Shown: piece by piece, positions 34,345 through 60,809 of the stretch
Layout: each line of letters starts with the position of its first letter
Numbering within the stretch: the first letter of the stretch is position 1
From: Thioalkalivibrio paradoxus ARh 1
GTDB lineage: Bacteria > Pseudomonadota > Gammaproteobacteria > Ectothiorhodospirales > Ectothiorhodospiraceae
Reading direction: 5' to 3'
Length of the DNA: 64,000 nt
Assembly (NCBI RefSeq): GCF_000227685.2
Contig: NZ_CP007029.1
Coordinates: forward strand, 2,206,501 to 2,270,500
Program-made: the position numbers and the translations under genes
The notes under the pieces: model-generated
Database searches by the model: none
What the model was told of the DNA's origin: nothing
What the model saw: the letters and a program-made list of their open reading frames with translations, nothing else

Positions 34345-34472
34345 TGGGGTCTCCTGACGGGTTGAGCCTCCACGTATCCCGGCCTGAAACCCGACCGCGA
34401 AGGGCGGGCACCCGACAGACCGTGCCGATACGTGTGTGGATTTAGGGTTTTCGTTGCCCCGAGGGCGCGCGC

Positions 34473-51338: not shown

Positions 51339-51551
51339 CCGGCGAACGCTTCGGACCCCCTCCCGCCCCGCCCGCGGACAACTGCCGGCGCAAAGGACAA
51401 GCCGGCCAGGCTGAACCGGGCTGGGGCGAACCACTCCGGCGACCGCGAAGCCTGGGCACGGTGCGCGAACCCCGGCCCAGCCACCCGGGCCGTCGATCGA
51501 AAAGCCGGCCGCGCAAACCCGGACAGACGGATCTCGTCCGACGCGGCAGGG
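51339..51551. other. Gap between convergent relA and the glycine-rich gene
   Basis: About 210 bases between two convergent genes. No terminator hairpin with a U run is obvious, and no gene is supported. Confidence 0.4.
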
Positions 51552-53579
51552 TCAGTTGTACTCGAGCACGGCCGCCGCCACTCCCGGCAGCCCGTCGTCA
51601 CCTCCGGCCGAGGAACAGAGCCCGGTTTTCGCACCGGTGCCGCCACGGCCGCCCTCGCCTGCGGCACCCGCCGCTCCCTGGTAGAAGGGCGTGTCGGTGG
51701 TGTTAACGACCGAGCCGTCGACCAGCGCCACGCCGGCCGACGGGCCGGAGTTGCCGCCGGCGCCGCCCCCTGCGGCACCGCCGGCACCGCCGTCTCCGCC
51801 ACGGCCGCCGTGACCGCCGGATTCATGGGTCGCCCCGGCCGCACCACTGCCGCCGGCGGCGCCGTTGCCGCCACGCCCCCCGTTGCCGCCATCGCCGCTG
51901 CGGCCGCCGACGATACGCGAATCGGTGAAGGCGACCGTAGAGCCCGCCAGGACCGCGGCGAACGCCGCCCCACCCTGCTGGCCGCCACCCCCGGCGTTGC
52001 CGGCGCAACCGCCTGCGCCACCGCCACCGCCTTCATTGCCAGGGTCCTCGGTCTTCACCCAGAAGCAGGCACCGGCCTTGTAGCCGCCGGCACCGCCTCC
52101 CCCGCCGCCGCCACCGGTGCCGCCCGAGGTGCCCGCCGTGCCGCTCGAGCCGTCCCAGGAGGTTCCGGTGAAACCGCCTGCGGTGTCTGTAGAGCGGCTG
52201 CCCTTGTGGCCGCAAGCGCCGTTGCTGCCGGTGGCACCCTCGTGCCCCGTCTTGCCGCGGCTGCGCGGGCATTCTGTGCAGTTACCGCTCCCCCACTTCC
52301 CGCCGGCCGCCCAGTTGCCCGTGCTGCCGGGTGCGCCAGCGTAGCCCCAGCAGCCGTTCTCACTGCACGAGGGCTTGCAGGTGAAGTCGACCGCACGGAC
52401 ATGGACGCTCACCTTCTGCTTTACTGCACCGGCGCCACCAGTGGTATTGGCACAGGCGGTGACACTGCCGCCGGTACGTCCGCTGCCGTCTCCGCCCCGG
52501 GTGCCGTCGCGCCCGTCGTCGCCCCCGGCCCCGGCACCGCCGGTGCCGGCGATTATCTCCGTGCTCACGATCGATAGGCCCCCGCTGCCGGACACCACGA
52601 GCGCAATACTCGGCGCGCCGTTGGCCTCGATCACCGCCGAACCCACCAGCTGGAAGCCCTGCATGCGTGTCGCGGCGTTGACACCGGAAGCGGTCACGGC
52701 AGGCTTCCCACCGGCCGGTGCCTGGATCACCGAGAAATAGTCCGGATGGGACTGGCTCTCGGGCAGGCAGCCACCATAGACATCCACGCCCTCGCGGAGC
52801 GCGACGCTCTCGGCTGGACTGTACTCGCCCCATTGCACCAGCACGCCGCAGCCGGAGGGCCCGCAGCGCTCCAGACCGCGGTCGATGGTCCTGCAAGCGC
52901 CCGCCGGCGTTGTGCCGCAGTCCGCGCCGTCGGTGCCGACCGTCGAAACGTAGATCCGGCTGGTGAGCTGCGACAAATCCGCCTTGCCACAGACCCATGG
53001 TTCCTCCATGGCAAGCAGGTCGCGTGCGCTCGCGCGCGGGCCGAGAAGTGCGCGTCCCAGATCGACGTCCGCGAACAGGGCCCCCTGGGTGTCGGCATAC
53101 TGGAGATCGGTGCGATCCATTGATGCGCCGGCGAGGCGCGCCCCCGCGAGATTGCTGCGCGAAAGGTCGGCCGGGCCCCTGTCCGACTCGTCGAGCCGTG
53201 CGTTGCTCAGGTCGACCCCGGCAAGATTGGCGCCGGTCAGCGAAGCCCCGTTCAGGTTACTGCCGCCCAGGTTCGCGCCGGTCAGGTCGGCCCCGGTCAG
53301 GTTGGCGTCGGACAGGTCACGACCGGACAGGTCGGCCCCCTTCAGGTCGCAGTAGGGGCAGATATAGGGCGCTTCACCCGCCAGCACCAGGCGGGTGTCC
53401 TCGCCCAGCGGCACGTCCCGCTCCTCCGGCGCGGTGCTCGGCAACGGCGCCGGGTCCGTGCCCTGATTCGATGCCGGCGTTGCGCCCAGTGGTGTGGTCG
53501 GGCCCGCCGCCAGCAGCAGCAACAGCAGAAGCGGCAGCATGCCGCGCCGGCCCTCCGCCTTCCTCAGTGTCCGTCTCAT
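51552..53579 (-). CDS. Secreted pentapeptide / beta-helix / glycine-rich protein
   Basis: 675 aa, last gene of a three-gene operon. Signal peptide (residues 1-26: basic start, a run of Leu, then AAG). Then a CxxC (YICPYC, 72-77) directly before about twenty pentapeptide repeats (GADLS, GANLT and so on, 80-180), which fold as a quadrilateral right-handed helix. Next comes a likely right-handed parallel beta-helix (208-345; IYVSTVGTDGADCG, then GGCLPESQSHPDYF). The C-terminal 310 residues are almost all Gly/Ala/Ser (GGAGG-type), resembling PGRS sequences but with no PE domain. Cysteine-rich spots (CSENGC, CTEC) may form disulfides. Ribosome-binding site GGAGG. Predicted to be exported; function unknown. 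Confidence 0.75.
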   Translation of the reverse strand: MRRTLRKAEGRRGMLPLLLLLLLAAGPTTPLGATPASNQGTDPAPLPSTAPEERDVPLGEDTRLVLAGEAPYICPYCDLKGADLSGRDLSDANLTGADLTGANLGGSNLNGASLTGANLAGVDLSNARLDESDRGPADLSRSNLAGARLAGASMDRTDLQYADTQGALFADVDLGRALLGPRASARDLLAMEEPWVCGKADLSQLTSRIYVSTVGTDGADCGTTPAGACRTIDRGLERCGPSGCGVLVQWGEYSPAESVALREGVDVYGGCLPESQSHPDYFSVIQAPAGGKPAVTASGVNAATRMQGFQLVGSAVIEANGAPSIALVVSGSGGLSIVSTEIIAGTGGAGAGGDDGRDGTRGGDGSGRTGGSVTACANTTGGAGAVKQKVSVHVRAVDFTCKPSCSENGCWGYAGAPGSTGNWAAGGKWGSGNCTECPRSRGKTGHEGATGSNGACGHKGSRSTDTAGGFTGTSWDGSSGTAGTSGGTGGGGGGGGAGGYKAGACFWVKTEDPGNEGGGGGAGGCAGNAGGGGQQGGAAFAAVLAGSTVAFTDSRIVGGRSGDGGNGGRGGNGAAGGSGAAGATHESGGHGGRGGDGGAGGAAGGGAGGNSGPSAGVALVDGSVVNTTDTPFYQGAAGAAGEGGRGGTGAKTGLCSSAGGDDGLPGVAAAVLEYN

Positions 53580-53665
53580 TCTCGTGGCCTCCGTGGCGCA
53601 TGGGTTGGATATATGCCCGCCCCGTCATCGCCGCCCGGGCGGGAAGGCACACCGGTCCGAAGGGA

Positions 53666-56600
53666 TCAGGTGCCCGGCAGCGGAGGGATCCACTCGCTGA
53701 CCGAGGGCACGGTCCGGCCCGCGGGGCCGGTCGAGGCGTTGCCGGGTCCCGCATGGTGGCCGGAACCGTCCGTGGTCATGTCGAAGTTGAGCGTGTAGAC
53801 GGTATGCCATAGGTCCACGACCAGCTTGGCCGCCGGGATATCGGGGGTGGTCACCAGCGGATTCACTTTCGGCGCCTCGGTGCCGTACTGGTAGACCGCC
53901 ATGCTGTAGTCTGTCGCGGCGGCCCCGTCGCCGGTGTAGTAGAGGACGTAGATGTAGGTCTGCTTCTCGTTGCCGACCGCGGCAATGTCGAGATAGCTGT
54001 GCTCGCCCGACTGGAACAATGGCAGAAACGGCGTCGGGTGGCCGTCCGCGTCGACGAAACGGTTGACCGGGTCACCGTGGAGATCGAACGCCTGGATGCG
54101 GGCGACGACATGGCTGCCCTGGCCTTCCGCCCGGGTGTCCTCCAGCACCAGGATGGTGCCGTCGTACGAGCAGGTCACCGCCACTGGGCGGAACAGCAGC
54201 CCCGCCCGGTCCGTTTCCAGCGCCTCGCCTGCGTAGGTGCGGGCCACCGGCAGGGCGTCGTCCGCCGCGCCATCGATGGAAAGCGGCGCGATCTGGAGCT
54301 TGTTGATCCGGTTGTGGGAGGTGACCGCGATCACGTAGCCCGCGGGGTGCAGCGCGAACGAGGTCGGGAAGAAGGGGAAGCGCCCGTGGCTCGGCAGCTT
54401 GGCGCCGGTATCGAAGGGTGTCCCGGTATCGAGCACCACCCTTCGCAGATGGTAGCCGCCGTCCTTGTCGAGACTGACATCCGACTTGCGCGGATCGATG
54501 TAGTAGGCACCGAGCGCCACGTCGTTCGGGTCGGGGCACGGCTTGCCGTCGGGGCCCAACACCCATTGTCCGTCCTTCATCTCGAACTTCGGCGGGTACG
54601 GGTCGTAGACGAGTTGCGTCGGCCCCTCGAAGCCGCACTGCGGAAACTTGGCGGCGGGAACCGACATCCCAGGGATCGCGATGTTCTGGAAGGCGTTCAG
54701 TTGCCCACCCTGGCCGCTGACGCACGAGTCGATGCCCATGCCGGCCGCCTTCCAGGCAAAACCGATCATTCCCTGCCGCTGGCTGAGCGTGAGACCGTAC
54801 CACTCGGAGATCGCGTTGCCGGTGCTGCTGGTGTTGCGGCTCGCGATCGTGGCGGTCGGTGCCTCGGCAGTGGGCTGCCACTGGTAGCGGCCTTCCCGGA
54901 AGGTGAGCAACGCCGAGTGCCGGTAGATGGATTTCTCCGTGAGCGGGATCGGGTACTGGACCAGATACATCGTCACCTGCGCGACATCGGACTCGTCGTT
55001 CTCCAGCCAGCCGGTGGTCGCCTTGCCGGCCAGCCATCGGTCCAGGTAGAAGTCCGCCTCGAACTTCACCTGGCCACCCAGCGTGTTGTTGGGGAAGCTG
55101 GCAGCCAGCGTGGCATCGGAAAAGCCCGCGGGCAGGTCGTGCTGCACCAGCCGCGCCGGACGGGCCTGGTCCTTGTAGATCATCTTCACGGTATACGACG
55201 CGCTGCTCCCGGCCGGTCCCTGGGGCCAGGTGCCATGCCTCGGGTCCGGGTGCAGCGTCACCTGCGTGGTGATCGCGGTGGAAATCCGGTTCTCGATGTT
55301 CCACGGCGAGGTGGCGACTTCGACGATGGTTTCGGCCATCTGCGCGATCCCGGTCGCGATGTTGATCGCGATCATGATCCAGCCCGCGTACGGGATCTCG
55401 TCGGCCGCCTCCTCCGTCGCCATCTCTGCCTCGACCCATAGCAACGCCTTGGTGGCCGCCTTGTTGAACAGCAGTTGGGCCAGCGTGGAAAAGGCGTGCC
55501 AGTTCATCTCCTTGTGCGCGGCGCTCACGCCGAACTGTGCACCGAAGAAGGCCACGCCACCACCCACCACCGCCGCCACGAACTTCTTGTTCCCGGAGAG
55601 TTCGTCGACGATGTCGTAGAGCGGCTTGTAGGACTGCGCGGCAGTGGCAGCCGCCAGCATGAATGCCGGTACGCCGAGGTTGAAGATGCCGGTCATCACA
55701 CCGCCGACGATCGGCGTCTTTGGCCAGTGGTCGGCGCCCGTGCCGAGACCGGACCCATAGATGCTGGCGCTGACCGCGTCTGGCGGAAAGGTCAGCGTCA
55801 CCTCCAGCTTGCCGGGATCCGCGACGATCGGAATCGCCATCACGTTGTTCACCGGCCCGATGTAGCCGATGAAACGGAGGTCGTCGTACTGGATGTCGAG
55901 CGCCTCGTTGATCACCTCGGTGATGATGCCGGCGTCCGCATTCCAGTCGGGCACCTTCATCGCGTTGCCGTCCGCGTCGTAGAAGCGGATGTAGGCGCCC
56001 AGGTAGCGGATGTACTCGTTGGTGAGGGTGAGCTTCACCTTGCGCTTGTCGCGATCGAGCACCTCCATCGCCGTTTTCATGCCGTGCACGACGCGACTGT
56101 TCTGCAGGGTGGCGTTCCAGTCGTCGCCCGCCAGCGCGCGGATGTCGGCGGCGAGCTGCAGGCTTTCGGATGCCGTCGCGATGTCGACGCTCTGCCCCGT
56201 CTGCTGCGTCCACTTGCCCTGCCACTGCCCGGTCCTCGGATCCTTCCTCACCTTCAGGCGCGGATCGTTCTTCGTGGCCTTCATCATCGAGGTCATCACC
56301 GCGCCCGCAGCGTCCATGCTCGCCGGCGTCGGCTGCGCGAAGTAGTAGGTCTTGTCTCCGTGGTATCCGGCGTCGGGGTTGTCCGGCGTGAACGGAACCA
56401 GGCGCGCCCAGCCGGAGTTCTCGGTCGGAGGGCCCATGCGGCGCATCTGGGCCGCGAGGTCGTTGAACTGCCCGCTGATCTGGACGTTGTTGTCCATGTA
56501 ATCGTGGATGATCCGGGTCGTCTCCGGATCCTTGTTGATGAGATCCGCGTGGTGAAAGACGAGGGATTTTGCGGTGGAGACGTAGTCGATGGTCTGGTGC

Positions 56601-56992
56601 ATTGCGCCGCCATTGGCCACCAGCGCGGCCAATCGCTCCGGCGGCGGCGGGCAGTGGATCGCGACATGGGAAACGCCGTGAACCGCCCTGGCATCGGGAA
56701 ACGACTTCAGCGTGTGCTTGAGATGAACGCGAACGACCGTACCGGCCGGAAGTTCCACCGGCCGTTCGGTGTAGTGCGTCAGCTGTCGGTGCGCCAGCTG
56801 CGGCGCCTGCTCGCGCAGCCGCGCGAGGCTCCGGGCCGTATGCGGCACCAGCGCATGTCGTGTCCCCACCGCATGCAGCCAGTACTCCTCGCCGGGATGG
56901 GCATCGGACAGATCCGCGTGAAACACCGTGGGCACCGGTCCCGAGACCCCGGCGGCCTTGCCGCCGTCATTCCTTTCGACAGCTCCGGTCAT
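53666..56992 (-). CDS. Large protein of unknown function with hydrophobic core and propeller-like C-terminus
   Basis: 1108 aa. I do not recognise the family. There is no signal peptide. Residues 1-420 look soluble and mixed alpha/beta. Three hydrophobic stretches follow: 427-452 (GGVMTGIFNLGVPAFMLAAA), 470-491 (glycine-rich FVAAVVGGGVAFFGAQF) and 534-560; they could insert into a membrane or act as a pore. The C-terminal 240 residues contain repeated strand-turn units (LHPAGYVIAVTSHNRINKLQI, then RPVAVTCSYDGTILVLED, then LDIAAVGNEKQTYIYVLYYT) like an NHL-type propeller. AAGGAG precedes the ATG. Middle gene of the operon, 86 bases upstream of the glycine-rich gene. No close comparison is possible here. 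Confidence 0.7.
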   Translation of the reverse strand: MTGAVERNDGGKAAGVSGPVPTVFHADLSDAHPGEEYWLHAVGTRHALVPHTARSLARLREQAPQLAHRQLTHYTERPVELPAGTVVRVHLKHTLKSFPDARAVHGVSHVAIHCPPPPERLAALVANGGAMHQTIDYVSTAKSLVFHHADLINKDPETTRIIHDYMDNNVQISGQFNDLAAQMRRMGPPTENSGWARLVPFTPDNPDAGYHGDKTYYFAQPTPASMDAAGAVMTSMMKATKNDPRLKVRKDPRTGQWQGKWTQQTGQSVDIATASESLQLAADIRALAGDDWNATLQNSRVVHGMKTAMEVLDRDKRKVKLTLTNEYIRYLGAYIRFYDADGNAMKVPDWNADAGIITEVINEALDIQYDDLRFIGYIGPVNNVMAIPIVADPGKLEVTLTFPPDAVSASIYGSGLGTGADHWPKTPIVGGVMTGIFNLGVPAFMLAAATAAQSYKPLYDIVDELSGNKKFVAAVVGGGVAFFGAQFGVSAAHKEMNWHAFSTLAQLLFNKAATKALLWVEAEMATEEAADEIPYAGWIMIAINIATGIAQMAETIVEVATSPWNIENRISTAITTQVTLHPDPRHGTWPQGPAGSSASYTVKMIYKDQARPARLVQHDLPAGFSDATLAASFPNNTLGGQVKFEADFYLDRWLAGKATTGWLENDESDVAQVTMYLVQYPIPLTEKSIYRHSALLTFREGRYQWQPTAEAPTATIASRNTSSTGNAISEWYGLTLSQRQGMIGFAWKAAGMGIDSCVSGQGGQLNAFQNIAIPGMSVPAAKFPQCGFEGPTQLVYDPYPPKFEMKDGQWVLGPDGKPCPDPNDVALGAYYIDPRKSDVSLDKDGGYHLRRVVLDTGTPFDTGAKLPSHGRFPFFPTSFALHPAGYVIAVTSHNRINKLQIAPLSIDGAADDALPVARTYAGEALETDRAGLLFRPVAVTCSYDGTILVLEDTRAEGQGSHVVARIQAFDLHGDPVNRFVDADGHPTPFLPLFQSGEHSYLDIAAVGNEKQTYIYVLYYTGDGAAATDYSMAVYQYGTEAPKVNPLVTTPDIPAAKLVVDLWHTVYTLNFDMTTDGSGHHAGPGNASTGPAGRTVPSVSEWIPPLPGT

Positions 56993-57116
56993 GACATCTC
57001 CTTGCACAATGCTTGATGGATGAATCCAGCCCGGCGGTCTCTCCCGCGTGGCAGCGTGCGTGGAACGCCCGTAGGCGATGCGACACCGTCCGGGAAGCCG
57101 GCTGCCACGATGGCGC

Positions 57117-59528
57117 CTAACGCGTCGGGCACTTCGGGGTCTTGAGCACGACCCATTGGTTGTTCGCGGAGTTGAACTCCGCGCACTGGCTGGTCTGCAG
57201 CGCCCGATAGCTCCCGTCCAGCTGCAACGCCGCGCAGTCGAAGCCGGCATTGCATCCGACCTCGAGGAAGGCGAGCCGGCCATCGGGGTTTTGCTTGGCG
57301 CTGTTGGCGATTGCCGACAGCGCGCCGACGCTCGACAGCGAATTCCCCGAAAGATCCAGGTAGCTGAGCGAGGTGAGACGATCGAGGCTCGGGTTGTAAG
57401 CGTCGAGCACCGAGGCGAGCTGGTTGTCCGAGGCATCGGCGTAGATCAGCGTGTCCTGGATGGCCAGGTCGAGCGCGGTGAGCGCATTGCCCGATACATC
57501 CAGCACCTCCAGCGCCTGCAGGATATCGAGGTGCTGAATCGACTTGAGCCGGTTGTTCGAGGCATCGAGCCGCACCAGGCCGGTGGTGTTCGACAGGTCG
57601 AGCAGCGTGAGCGCGTTGTTGGCAATCTTCAGGCTCTGCAGGTTCGGAAGCGGCAGCGCGTACTGCTCGATCCGGTTGGCGCTCAGGTCCAGGCTCAGCA
57701 GCGAAGTGAAGTGCTCGAGCCCGGTGAGATCCTCGATCTGCCGTCCAGGACAGCGGACCTCGGGCAGCGCCTGGGCAGTCTGTACCGTCACCTCTGACGG
57801 GTGCCCCGGCAGCATCTCCAGAATGCAGGACTTCAGATTGTCATCCTTGAAGTGGACGATGTCGCCGGGAGGCGCATCACAGGGCGGTTTCGACCACACC
57901 GTCCGCAACGCGTGGTCGGGGGGCGGCGAACAGTCGCGCGTCTGCCAGCCGGGGATAATCCACTGCCGGCCGGTGCAGGGGGCGACCTCGCCGTTCGGAC
58001 AGTACACGCTCGCGTTCAGCACCGGAAACGTAACGGGCCCGTACGCCTCCTGGGTGATGTCGATGGTGCCACACCAGTTGAATCCCGCCTTGGGCGGGCA
58101 GCACTCGCCGGCCGGCGGCATCACTGCGGCCTGGAAGTCGGCGGCGGTGATCGTGGCGTTGCTGAAATCGCTGCCACCCAGCTGCGTACAGGTGAAATCG
58201 ACACCCGTGCCGCCGCTGTCCGGGGTGGTCTTCATGGTCGTGCCGGTGAAGCGGGCCTGTTGCAGCACCGAGCCGTGAAAGCTGACGTTCTCCAGGATGG
58301 AACCATCGAAACTGACGTCCGGCATGATCACGCCGTTGAAGCTCGTTCCCTGCAGGGTCGCGTCGTTGAATCGGGCCCGGGTCAGGATGACGCTGTTGAA
58401 CTGGACGAAGTTGACGGCTGCGCCGGAAAAGTAGGTGTCGGTCAGGTCGGCTCCGAGCACGGAAGCGGCCGGCAGCGTACCGCTGGGCGTGAGGTCCGCA
58501 TGGATGAAGCTGGCGTTCCTGAGGGTCGCTCCCGACAGGTTCGCGCCATGCAGCACCGCGAAATTCAGCGTGGCGTGCGAGAGATTGGCTCCCCTGAACA
58601 CCGCCTGTGTGAGATCCGCTGCCTTGCGTGGATCCCGCGAATCCGGGGTGTCCGGGCAGGCCTTGCCGTTGGGATTGTCCTTGTCGTCGCCCTTGGCTCC
58701 ATAAAACCGCGCGCAGGAGAGCCCGGCGCCGGTCAGGTCGGCGTGCACCAGGCGGACGCCGTTCAGGGCGGCGTCGTCGAGCTTCGCCGCGATCAGATTC
58801 GCTCCGCTGAAGTCCACGCCGGTGAGATTGGCGCCGGTCATGTCGATGCTGCTGAAGTTCGCGCCCACCAGGATCGCGCCCGTGATGTCCTTCCCCTTCA
58901 GGGAAAAGGTGCTGGGGCTCACGTTCTGGAAGTTGGTGCGGGTGAAGTCGATCTGCCCCCAGTGGTCGGTGGTGATCGCGTTCACGTCCAGCGTGGCATG
59001 GCTGAAATCGGTGCGACAGCCGTCGCCGGCGGCGATCTGCTGCCGCGGCCCGAACTCCGCGTGCATCAGCGACGTGCCCGAGAAGTCGGTGCAGCGGAAC
59101 TCGGCGAAGGTGAAGCGGGTGGCGTTCAGGATGGCGTCAATGAAACAGGTCTCGTGAAGCACCGCGCCGGAGAAATTCACAGGCCCGAAACCGGAGGGGC
59201 CCAGGTCGGCTCCCCTGAAGCTCGCACCGGTCAGGTCCTGGCCGTCGAAGCGGGCCCCCTTCAGGATCGCGTTCTCGAAGTTGGCGCCCCGCAACGAGCC
59301 GGCCGGGCGGTCATGGAAGTTGCGGTTGGTGAGGTCCTGCCCCGAGTAGTCCGGCCCCGAGGGCGCAACAGGACAGGCCGAGCGATGCTCGAGACTGGGC
59401 GGCTGGTGTGCGTCTCGTAACGGGGCGTCGGCTGCGAACGCCGCCGATCCACCTGTCAGTAAGAGCACGAACCCAGCAGCGCGTACACTCGATCCGGGCC
59501 CGGCAACGGTCTGCAATGCTGTGAACAT
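57117..59528 (-). CDS. Secreted pentapeptide-repeat and leucine-rich-repeat protein
   Basis: 803 aa, first gene of the operon. Signal peptide (1-32, ending AAFA). A very long pentapeptide-repeat section (about 60-470; A(D/N)LxG units, interrupted near 275-305 by a Cys-bearing acidic loop), a Cys-rich linker (475-560), and four to six leucine-rich repeats (597-735; LLSLDLSANRI, LVRLDASNNRL and LEVLDVSGNAL types), then a Cys-bearing tail. The combination of pentapeptide coil and LRR in one exported protein is not one I recognise; both folds bind other proteins. The ATG was chosen for the signal peptide; a GTG three codons earlier is possible. Confidence 0.75.
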   Translation of the reverse strand: MFTALQTVAGPGSSVRAAGFVLLLTGGSAAFAADAPLRDAHQPPSLEHRSACPVAPSGPDYSGQDLTNRNFHDRPAGSLRGANFENAILKGARFDGQDLTGASFRGADLGPSGFGPVNFSGAVLHETCFIDAILNATRFTFAEFRCTDFSGTSLMHAEFGPRQQIAAGDGCRTDFSHATLDVNAITTDHWGQIDFTRTNFQNVSPSTFSLKGKDITGAILVGANFSSIDMTGANLTGVDFSGANLIAAKLDDAALNGVRLVHADLTGAGLSCARFYGAKGDDKDNPNGKACPDTPDSRDPRKAADLTQAVFRGANLSHATLNFAVLHGANLSGATLRNASFIHADLTPSGTLPAASVLGADLTDTYFSGAAVNFVQFNSVILTRARFNDATLQGTSFNGVIMPDVSFDGSILENVSFHGSVLQQARFTGTTMKTTPDSGGTGVDFTCTQLGGSDFSNATITAADFQAAVMPPAGECCPPKAGFNWCGTIDITQEAYGPVTFPVLNASVYCPNGEVAPCTGRQWIIPGWQTRDCSPPPDHALRTVWSKPPCDAPPGDIVHFKDDNLKSCILEMLPGHPSEVTVQTAQALPEVRCPGRQIEDLTGLEHFTSLLSLDLSANRIEQYALPLPNLQSLKIANNALTLLDLSNTTGLVRLDASNNRLKSIQHLDILQALEVLDVSGNALTALDLAIQDTLIYADASDNQLASVLDAYNPSLDRLTSLSYLDLSGNSLSSVGALSAIANSAKQNPDGRLAFLEVGCNAGFDCAALQLDGSYRALQTSQCAEFNSANNQWVVLKTPKCPTR

Positions 59529-60007
59529 CCCTGTCACCCCGCGTACGGTTGGTTGGCAGGCACTCGGCTCCGATGGCCGGAACCAGCCGCAGAATCGTTG
59601 CCAGCAACTCGCGCCGCCCGAGCACCTCGCCTACTTAGAACGCACGATCTACGACTTTCCGACTAGTGTAGTCAGCATCCGGCGTTTTTTCACCGGCAAG
59701 TCCCCAACGCGGAGCATGGGCGGATTCCCAGGCCACGAGCGTGTGCCGTTCCCAGCGTCTGGACCGCGGCAAGGCCGTCGCCGGCAATGGCGTTCCCGAA
59801 CGCAGCAGAGCTATCGCGGGCGACATCGATTTCCCCACGTCGAAACCGTGCCCAGTCGTGCGCACCCAGCGGGCCGTGCCGCTGCCGATTTGTGGAACGA
59901 ACCTTGCGGTCCAGCAGGCCCAGCGCAACCCTCTGGGGTCACGTCGGTGCGGGGCCGTCGCGCTCGACCTGCACAAGCCTCGGCGCGAGGTAGTCTCCCT
60001 ATGCCGG
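59529..60007. other. Intergenic region upstream of the three-gene operon
   Basis: 479 bases with no supported gene. Both flanking genes point left, so this gap holds the promoter of the pentapeptide/LRR operon at its left end and the 3' side of carbonic anhydrase at its right. I see no convincing -35/-10 pair and no terminator. A 113-codon minus-strand frame in it has no domain. Confidence 0.5.
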
Positions 60008-60667
60008 TCAGCCGATCGATCCCATGGGTCCGGGGTAACTCACCTCCTCCAGCTCGCCGGTATCAACGTCGTAGATGAACCCACGCACCGTCACCGCGTC
60101 GGGCCCGCTGGCAGGAAGCCACGGGTGATTCTTGATCGCCGAAATGCCCCGCCGAACGTCCCACGCCAGACGCTCCATGTTCTTGTCGTCGCGCGGCGAG
60201 TCCAGTGGCTCGATCGGGCCGCGGAAGGCATGGAAGGCAACCGGACTGCTCGAGGCCTTGCCGGTACTGACGAAGGTACGGCCAGTTGCCTGACCGAGCA
60301 GCTTCTCCGCGGCCGCATCGCCCTCGAGGCCGGCCTTGAGCAGATCGTCGGTGAATGCCAGCATGCCGCAGCGGGTGTGGTGGATGAGGATGATCTCGTT
60401 GGTGTTCAACAGGTGATGCGAGATAATCAGGCAGCGGATCGCATCCTCGGTGACGACGCCGCCGGCGTTGCGGATGATATGCGCCTCGCCGGTCTGCAGT
60501 CCCAGCAGGTCTTCGACGTCCAGGCGTGCATCCATGCAGGCGACGACCGCCACGCGCCGCGACGGCTGGATCGGCTGTTTGCCGGGGTAGCCCGGCATGT
60601 GTACCGGTTCGCCACTGGCATATTGCTGGTTGTTTCGGAGAAGTTCGTCTGTGTTCGAGGTCGCCAT
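60008..60667 (-). CDS. Beta-class carbonic anhydrase
   Basis: 219 aa. It interconverts CO2 and bicarbonate. The zinc ligands C44, H97 and C100 are in place, with the D46/R48 dyad in CMDARLD and a GGVVTEDA loop nearby. It is of the compact cytoplasmic kind; no signal peptide. AGGGG just upstream of the ATG supports the start. A possible TATAAG -10 lies about 85 bases upstream but without a good -35. It may supply bicarbonate for carbon fixation, but no carboxysome or RuBisCO gene is in the window. Confidence 0.93.
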
Positions 60668-60809
60668 GGTATCCCCTCCAAGCCTGTCGTCTGATGGATG
60701 ACGCGCATACTCTCCCGGTCGGCACGTTGCAGCGCGTTCGCGTAACCTCTCTTATAGTTGGCCGGAGCGGACAATCACAGGCAGGCGCGCATCGTGCTGC
60801 AGCCGTCGC

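Follow-up and report, generated by a model that had tools for sequence, protein, structure and literature searches.

A protein family paired with long pentapeptide-repeat proteins, possible core of a membrane- or lipid-engaging assembly in Thioalkalivibrio paradoxus and scattered bacteria

The three-gene locus and its products

The window, a 64,000-nucleotide stretch of the Thioalkalivibrio paradoxus ARh 1 genome (contig NZ_CP007029.1, positions 2,206,501 to 2,270,500), carries three neighbouring open frames on the minus strand, as a preliminary description had stated. The operon's first gene, P0001 (59528-57117), encodes 803 residues with pentapeptide repeats, leucine-rich repeats (LRR) and a Sec-type N-terminus; the second, P0002 (56992-53666), encodes a protein of 1,108 residues that we call M and regard as the core of the system; and the third, P0003 (53579-51552), encodes 675 residues with pentapeptide repeats, a glycine-rich region and, again, a Sec-type N-terminus. 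The shared strand and the gaps of 124 bases between P0001 and M and 86 bases between M and P0003 suggest that the three are co-transcribed. A consensus scan returned no promoter-like sites and six terminator-like sites against 4.2 expected, overall no better than chance; the sole one on the minus strand (51419-51402) lies just beyond P0003, the operon's last gene. Compared with the sister species G010, which we take to be T. nitratireducens, dN/dS is 0.17 for P0001, 0.11 for M and 0.28 for P0003, low values that indicate purifying selection on all three proteins. PMC5328954 places T. paradoxus and T. nitratireducens in a separate cluster within the genus.

Upstream of the operon by 479 bases, on the same strand, lies a carbonic-anhydrase-like gene (recognised by eye; 60008-60667), which is present in G010 too (stretch L006) and, by eye, not in the more distant stretch L005. 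T. paradoxus and G010 share a 9.2-kb block at 96% identity (51545-60765 against L006); no alignment was found on either side of it in the stretches compared, and in G010 transposase-like genes (by eye) are present beyond its limits. Elsewhere in the window there is an Rfam t44 RNA (34361-34456, minus strand, 75.3 bits).

Both outer proteins begin with hydrophobic, Sec-type N-termini, judged from hydrophobic stretches, which agrees with the signal peptides first proposed for them. In P0001 the probable signal peptide spans about residues 1-32 (59433..59528; this and all following window coordinates are on the minus strand) and contains the hydrophobic stretch GFVLLLTGGSAAFAA, the cleavage site being placed by eye. 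The pentapeptide repeats that had been noticed in both proteins exceed the Pfam PF00805 gathering score of 20.2 comfortably, with 173.1 bits over eight stretches in P0001 (about residues 60-470; 58119..59351) and 82.4 bits in P0003 (about residues 75-180; 53040..53357). P0001 also bears the leucine-rich repeats ascribed to it, at about residues 595-745 (57294..57746; LRR_4, 49.4 bits, cut-off 27). The glycine-rich tail proposed for P0003 was found at about residues 345-675 (51555..52547), and glycine makes up 27% of 495 residues of this protein, but the beta-helix assigned to its middle gave no Pfam match above cut-off and no convincing PDB match.

Several candidate identities for the outer proteins were rejected. 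Gyrase protection of the Qnr/MfpA kind is disfavoured by the Sec-type N-termini and by NCBIfam scores far below the cut-offs (for P0001, 66.1 bits against 240 for Qnr and 50.1 against 360 for MfpA; lower for P0003). The NCBIfam matches of P0001 to the effectors PipB2 and SlrP and to internalins likewise fell below cut-off and reflect generic repeats. A pentapeptide protein on a Runella plasmid, retrieved with P0001, was also set aside: its pentapeptide stretch is similar, and no M was found in the two stretches examined.

M matched no model in Pfam or NCBIfam at E 1 or better, known unrelated families among them, and none in PHROGs or PADLOC at E 0.01. Its N-terminal domain (56513..56935) contains near-invariant histidines at positions 25, 51, 73, 113 and 148. 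Across nine diverse M sequences that have the domain, reference residues 20-160 hold ten near-invariant columns, five of which are histidine (His 25, 73, 113 and 148 in 9/9, His 51 in 8/9), compared with one histidine among the 80 such columns in the remainder of the protein; this count omits five of the 14 rows, which are near-duplicates or, in the case of G828b, lack the domain. The enrichment is modest (binomial test, 5.5e-4), and no acid is found among the domain's near-invariant columns. Lipocone lipid enzymes, whose ancestral His, Glu and Asp lie on helices H2-H4 according to PMC12419801, were rejected as relatives, as this set was not seen in the M alignment, judged by eye only.

The hydrophobic central segments and the lack of a signal that had been reported for M both held. 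Three stretches (residues 428-446, 471-489 and 539-557; 55322..55711 for the whole of residues 428-557) were found, and none is N-terminal in the T. paradoxus protein. They are moderate (Kyte-Doolittle 1.4-2.1) and may form a buried core. At a cut-off of 1.4, the first is present in 10, the second in 9 and the third in 13 of 14 M sequences; 13 have at least two and six have all three, with none in G828b.

Towards the C-terminus, where a propeller-like end had been suggested, one NHL-type repeat could be substantiated (about residues 917-980; 54053..54244, mapped by eye from the profile). The M family profile aligns this segment to successive NHL blades of TRIM71 (E 1.9e-11), and a profile of the 14 members matches the same blades at E 2.2e-15. 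Because all five alignments use one region of the profile (about 894-947), they establish a single NHL-type repeat, from which a whole C-terminal propeller may be extrapolated. Single-sequence matches to Pfam NHL are weak (three of 14 members, best E 0.0012), as are those to the ScyF model NF035926 (eight of 14, best E 0.0069), and the rest of M matched no family in Pfam, NCBIfam or profile-against-PDB searches.

Distribution and genomic context

In the samples searched, M turned up rarely and with a patchy spread; the searches of whole genomes covered the window's phylum only. Homologues were found in 12 further genomes or records, one of them a mere fragment. With the window's own genome counted wherever it was sampled, and with genomes overlapping between searches, M occurs in 3 of 58 relatives (one a fragment), 2 of 369 genomes of the class (one a weak fragment; first search, with a single sequence) and 5 of 398 of the phylum. 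It was further found in 4 of 198 genomes in the family of G716, 3 of 289 in the class of G479 (two fragments), 2 of 48 in the class of G553 (one a fragment) and 4 of 201 in the order of G780 (one, G1265, cut by a contig end). The class searched with the deepest profile gave 20 of 303, of which 19 match the NHL region only; these 19 were dropped as weak, together with G015, G069, G1045, G1067 and G412.

When GTDB contigs were scanned for patterns of M alone, a method that reaches only close relatives, the scan retrieved L005, a stretch of a Methylococcales MAG (G780), and a plasmid search retrieved an M at 28% identity from Xenorhabdus bovienii CS03; plasmid searches with the CS03 and G479 proteins added no new record. 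The remoter members (24-29% identity) belong to Xenorhabdus-like bacteria, to further genomes in the Methylococcales sample and to two additional classes. A phage or anti-phage origin was considered and rejected: tblastn against 50,697 phage records found no M, the 37 stretches from a pattern scan of IMG/VR included no relative, and none of the three window proteins matched PADLOC at E 0.01.

In all 11 loci with readable flanks, M adjoins a long pentapeptide-repeat protein, here termed P, or is separated from it only by genes for glycine-rich or BPI-like proteins; occurrence of M independently of P was not encountered in these searches. By our grouping the 11 loci represent about seven lineages, spread over distantly related Proteobacteria, and include close kin (G000 with G010; CS03 with G678, G908 and G716). 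G553 and G1265 stand outside the count, as a contig end hides a flank. No P is visible beside M in either; a different G1265 contig has at its end what is, by eye, a homologue of the G1290 P. The genomic conservation envisaged in the preliminary description thus applies to the M-P pair, whereas the trio in its exact form was encountered in just three genomes, T. paradoxus (G000), G010 and G780. Both other copies keep the window's order, with identities of 98% for P0001, 96% for M and 93% for P0003 in G010, and 53%, 54% and 42%, respectively, in G780. Across the 58 relatives, full-length M and the LRR half of P0001 are present in the same two genomes and neither is present in the other 56; the third match of each search is weak and partial and falls in another genome.

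Outside these three genomes, P0003 gives way to individual glycine-rich proteins, to a BPI-like protein or to no protein at all, and no LRR was detected in the six further pentapeptide partners that were scanned. The accessories that vary are the LRR, the glycine-rich proteins, the BPI/LBP-like protein and a polyketide synthase. CS03, G678, G716 and G908 share an arrangement of M, two or three glycine-rich genes, P and then a type I polyketide synthase of about 1,710 residues, a single module to judge from its length (annotated in CS03, recognised by eye in the other three), with two more glycine-rich genes between P and the synthase in G908. G828 has glycine-rich genes, P, two tandem M genes, a further glycine-rich gene and then a synthase cluster (by eye). 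In G479 a gene of the BPI/LBP type stands between M and P, its product matching BPI/LBP/CETP_C at 31.6 bits (cut-off 23) and LBP structure 4m4d at E 9e-4. G1319 has M followed by P, and G1290 has two M genes flanking a P with a Teneurin-type NHL region. The genes for M and P share a strand, with gaps of -8 to 140 bases; one gene pair in G828 overlaps by 68 bases, its start being uncertain. Neighbouring genes were for the most part named by eye, as were the Tat and lipobox readings and the resemblance of some P N-termini to a beta-trefoil.

Some of these loci have additional neighbours. In the stretches L031 and L032, two tandem M genes, one without the histidine domain, lie inside a polyketide synthase cluster that includes genes recognised by eye as FkbH-like and acyl-CoA dehydrogenase genes. 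ABC exporter and HlyD-like genes (by eye) follow the M-P-M cluster of G1290 (L042:145-3584). In two unrelated genomes a histidine kinase and a LuxR-type response regulator adjoin the M locus (L005:3997-6449 and L018:3626-6496), the Pfam check having covered the L005 kinase only.

Pentapeptide genes are found in nine of 14 control genomes. Genomes with M have between one and six of them, and in G010, G716, G479 and G1290 the only ones found are those at M. Away from M, 14 pentapeptide loci were located in 12 genomes; seven were examined and none has an M, although one of these (L061, G1265) ends its contig inside the pentapeptide gene, leaving six true controls. The pentapeptide proteins associated with type VI secretion (T6SS) were rejected as counterparts: loci L055 and L056, T6SS-like by eye, carry a different kind of pentapeptide protein and no M.

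A 60-residue domain occurs in both M and P of the Xenorhabdus-like, G828 and G479 loci and is absent from the window's three proteins. A joint profile, built from seven copies from CS03 and G479 and applied to a test set of 25 proteins, recovers the non-seed M and P of G716 and G828 at 38-110 bits. An M-only profile gives 30.8 bits for the G828 P and only 6-9 bits for the P of G479, CS03 and G716, and a P-only profile gives M at most 11.5 bits.

These observations support the view that M and the long pentapeptide protein form a functional group, and the two very probably work together. A search of open-access full text found no description of the pair, which counts as weak evidence; the M family, which has no Pfam or NCBIfam model, and its pentapeptide partnership appear to be undescribed.

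Possible roles of the assembly

We tentatively favour, with a probability of roughly 0.37, a membrane- or lipid-engaging assembly with M as its active subunit and M plus P as its conserved core. Our confidence in this reading is lowered by the fact that one NHL repeat was matched and that all three hydrophobic stretches occur in only six of the 14 M sequences. M and the long P would together form the conserved core of one multi-protein assembly, in which P would be a rigid rod, serving as scaffold and, through its variable extra domain, directing the assembly to its target; this domain is LRR, NHL, a borderline FG-GAP match or, by eye, of beta-trefoil look. We infer that M, after folding in the cytoplasm, would use a C-terminal propeller to contact P or a ligand at the surface, its central segment to touch a membrane or a lipid-like ligand, and its N-terminal histidines to bind metal. 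The glycine-rich proteins, the BPI-like lipid-binding protein and the polyketide synthase would be lineage-specific accessories. In T. paradoxus the assembly may be located in the periplasm or at the cell surface, and the site in the cell may differ by lineage. In favour of the assembly are the M-P linkage in every readable locus, the domain common to M and P in several of them, the BPI-like gene in G479, the central stretches of M, at least two of which occur in 13 of 14 sequences, and the N-termini of M in G553 and G1290, which look Tat-like by eye. The preliminary description had proposed a surface or secreted assembly in which the two repeat proteins would bind or present M. The main fact against a secreted assembly is that export signals are absent from M in most loci (T. 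paradoxus, G780, G479, G1319 and the Xenorhabdus-like loci) and from P in several (the Xenorhabdus-like loci, G828 and G1319). The P of G479 has only a moderate N-terminal hydrophobic stretch (1.52), and the hydrophobicity scan does not flag the Tat-like N-termini of M in G553 and G1290.

The same features can be read in other ways. The concentration of conserved histidines at the N-terminus of M, together with the polyketide synthase beside the Xenorhabdus-like genes, would suit a metal-dependent enzyme whose five-histidine domain is the active site, the rest of M and P serving as scaffold or display, and whose substrate is lineage-specific, for example the polyketide product in Xenorhabdus-like bacteria. 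We consider this unlikely, as M matched no enzyme family, the near-invariant columns of the domain include no acid and conserved histidines can be structural. A shade less probable is a matrix for storage, carriage or export, in which M, P and the glycine-rich and BPI-like proteins together hold a lipid or polyketide; the BPI-like partner in G479, the type I synthase following P in CS03, G678, G716 and G908 and the large synthase cluster around the G828 genes fit such a role, yet inspection by eye of the gene surroundings in T. paradoxus, G780, G1319 and G1290 revealed no recognisable synthase or lipid gene.

Less likely again is a membrane-active, toxin-like complex in which the hydrophobic segment of M would enter the membranes of target cells, recognition being left to P, LRR or glycine-rich parts. 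Its attractions are the multi-domain build, with a hydrophobic middle and binding domains, the presence of the genes in the insect-associated species X. bovienii and the exporter-like genes further downstream in G1290. Weighing against it, no NCBIfam model scored above cut-off (the PipB2, SlrP and internalin matches being generic), PADLOC gave nothing for the window's proteins, most loci show no evident way for M to be secreted and T. paradoxus is a free-living soda-lake bacterium (PMC4653848). That the locus merely joins an ordinary leucine-rich and pentapeptide operon to an unrelated hypothetical gene is very improbable: pentapeptide genes are indeed common, as the control genomes attest, but chance would have to account for the linkage in every readable locus of about seven lineages whose genomes have few pentapeptide genes, for a trio retained at 42-54% identity in a genome assigned to a different order and for the agreement between M and P0001 in where they occur and where they are missing among the 58 relatives.

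To return to the lipid-engaging assembly, a bolder form of it, which we regard as doubtful, is that M founds an undescribed metal-binding, lipid-engaging family obligately paired with a pentapeptide rod, and that the pair represents a new kind of assembly in sulfur oxidisers, methanotroph relatives and insect symbionts that handles a polyketide or lipid. What was a hypothetical operon has become a testable system, comprising a family without a Pfam or NCBIfam model and a fixed partner. In our judgement the roles of exported pentapeptide-repeat proteins are mostly unknown; should the lipid or metal proposal prove true, they could be assigned a function and a partner, and sense could be made of the structural proteins encoded next to the Xenorhabdus-like polyketide synthase.

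Relation to known systems

Tc/ABC toxins, found in Xenorhabdus, are multi-component secreted complexes of large multi-domain proteins; M differs in that Pfam, NCBIfam and profile-against-PDB searches revealed no homology. The BPI/LBP/CETP lipid-binding proteins are represented by the gene between M and P in one locus, G479, but are absent from the three window proteins; the genes of other loci were scanned in part. With the NHL-repeat proteins (Pfam NHL; NF035926, the ScyF protein of scytonemin synthesis) M shares an NHL-type repeat near the C-terminus, and it differs from them in its remaining regions, which matched no family. For the pentapeptide partner, the nearest likeness is YjbI of Caulobacter, which PMC12864828 describes as an exported pentapeptide beta-helix protein at the envelope surface. 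We rate the recognisable parts of these proteins as known folds, and the broad kind to which they belong as a multi-component repeat-protein assembly.
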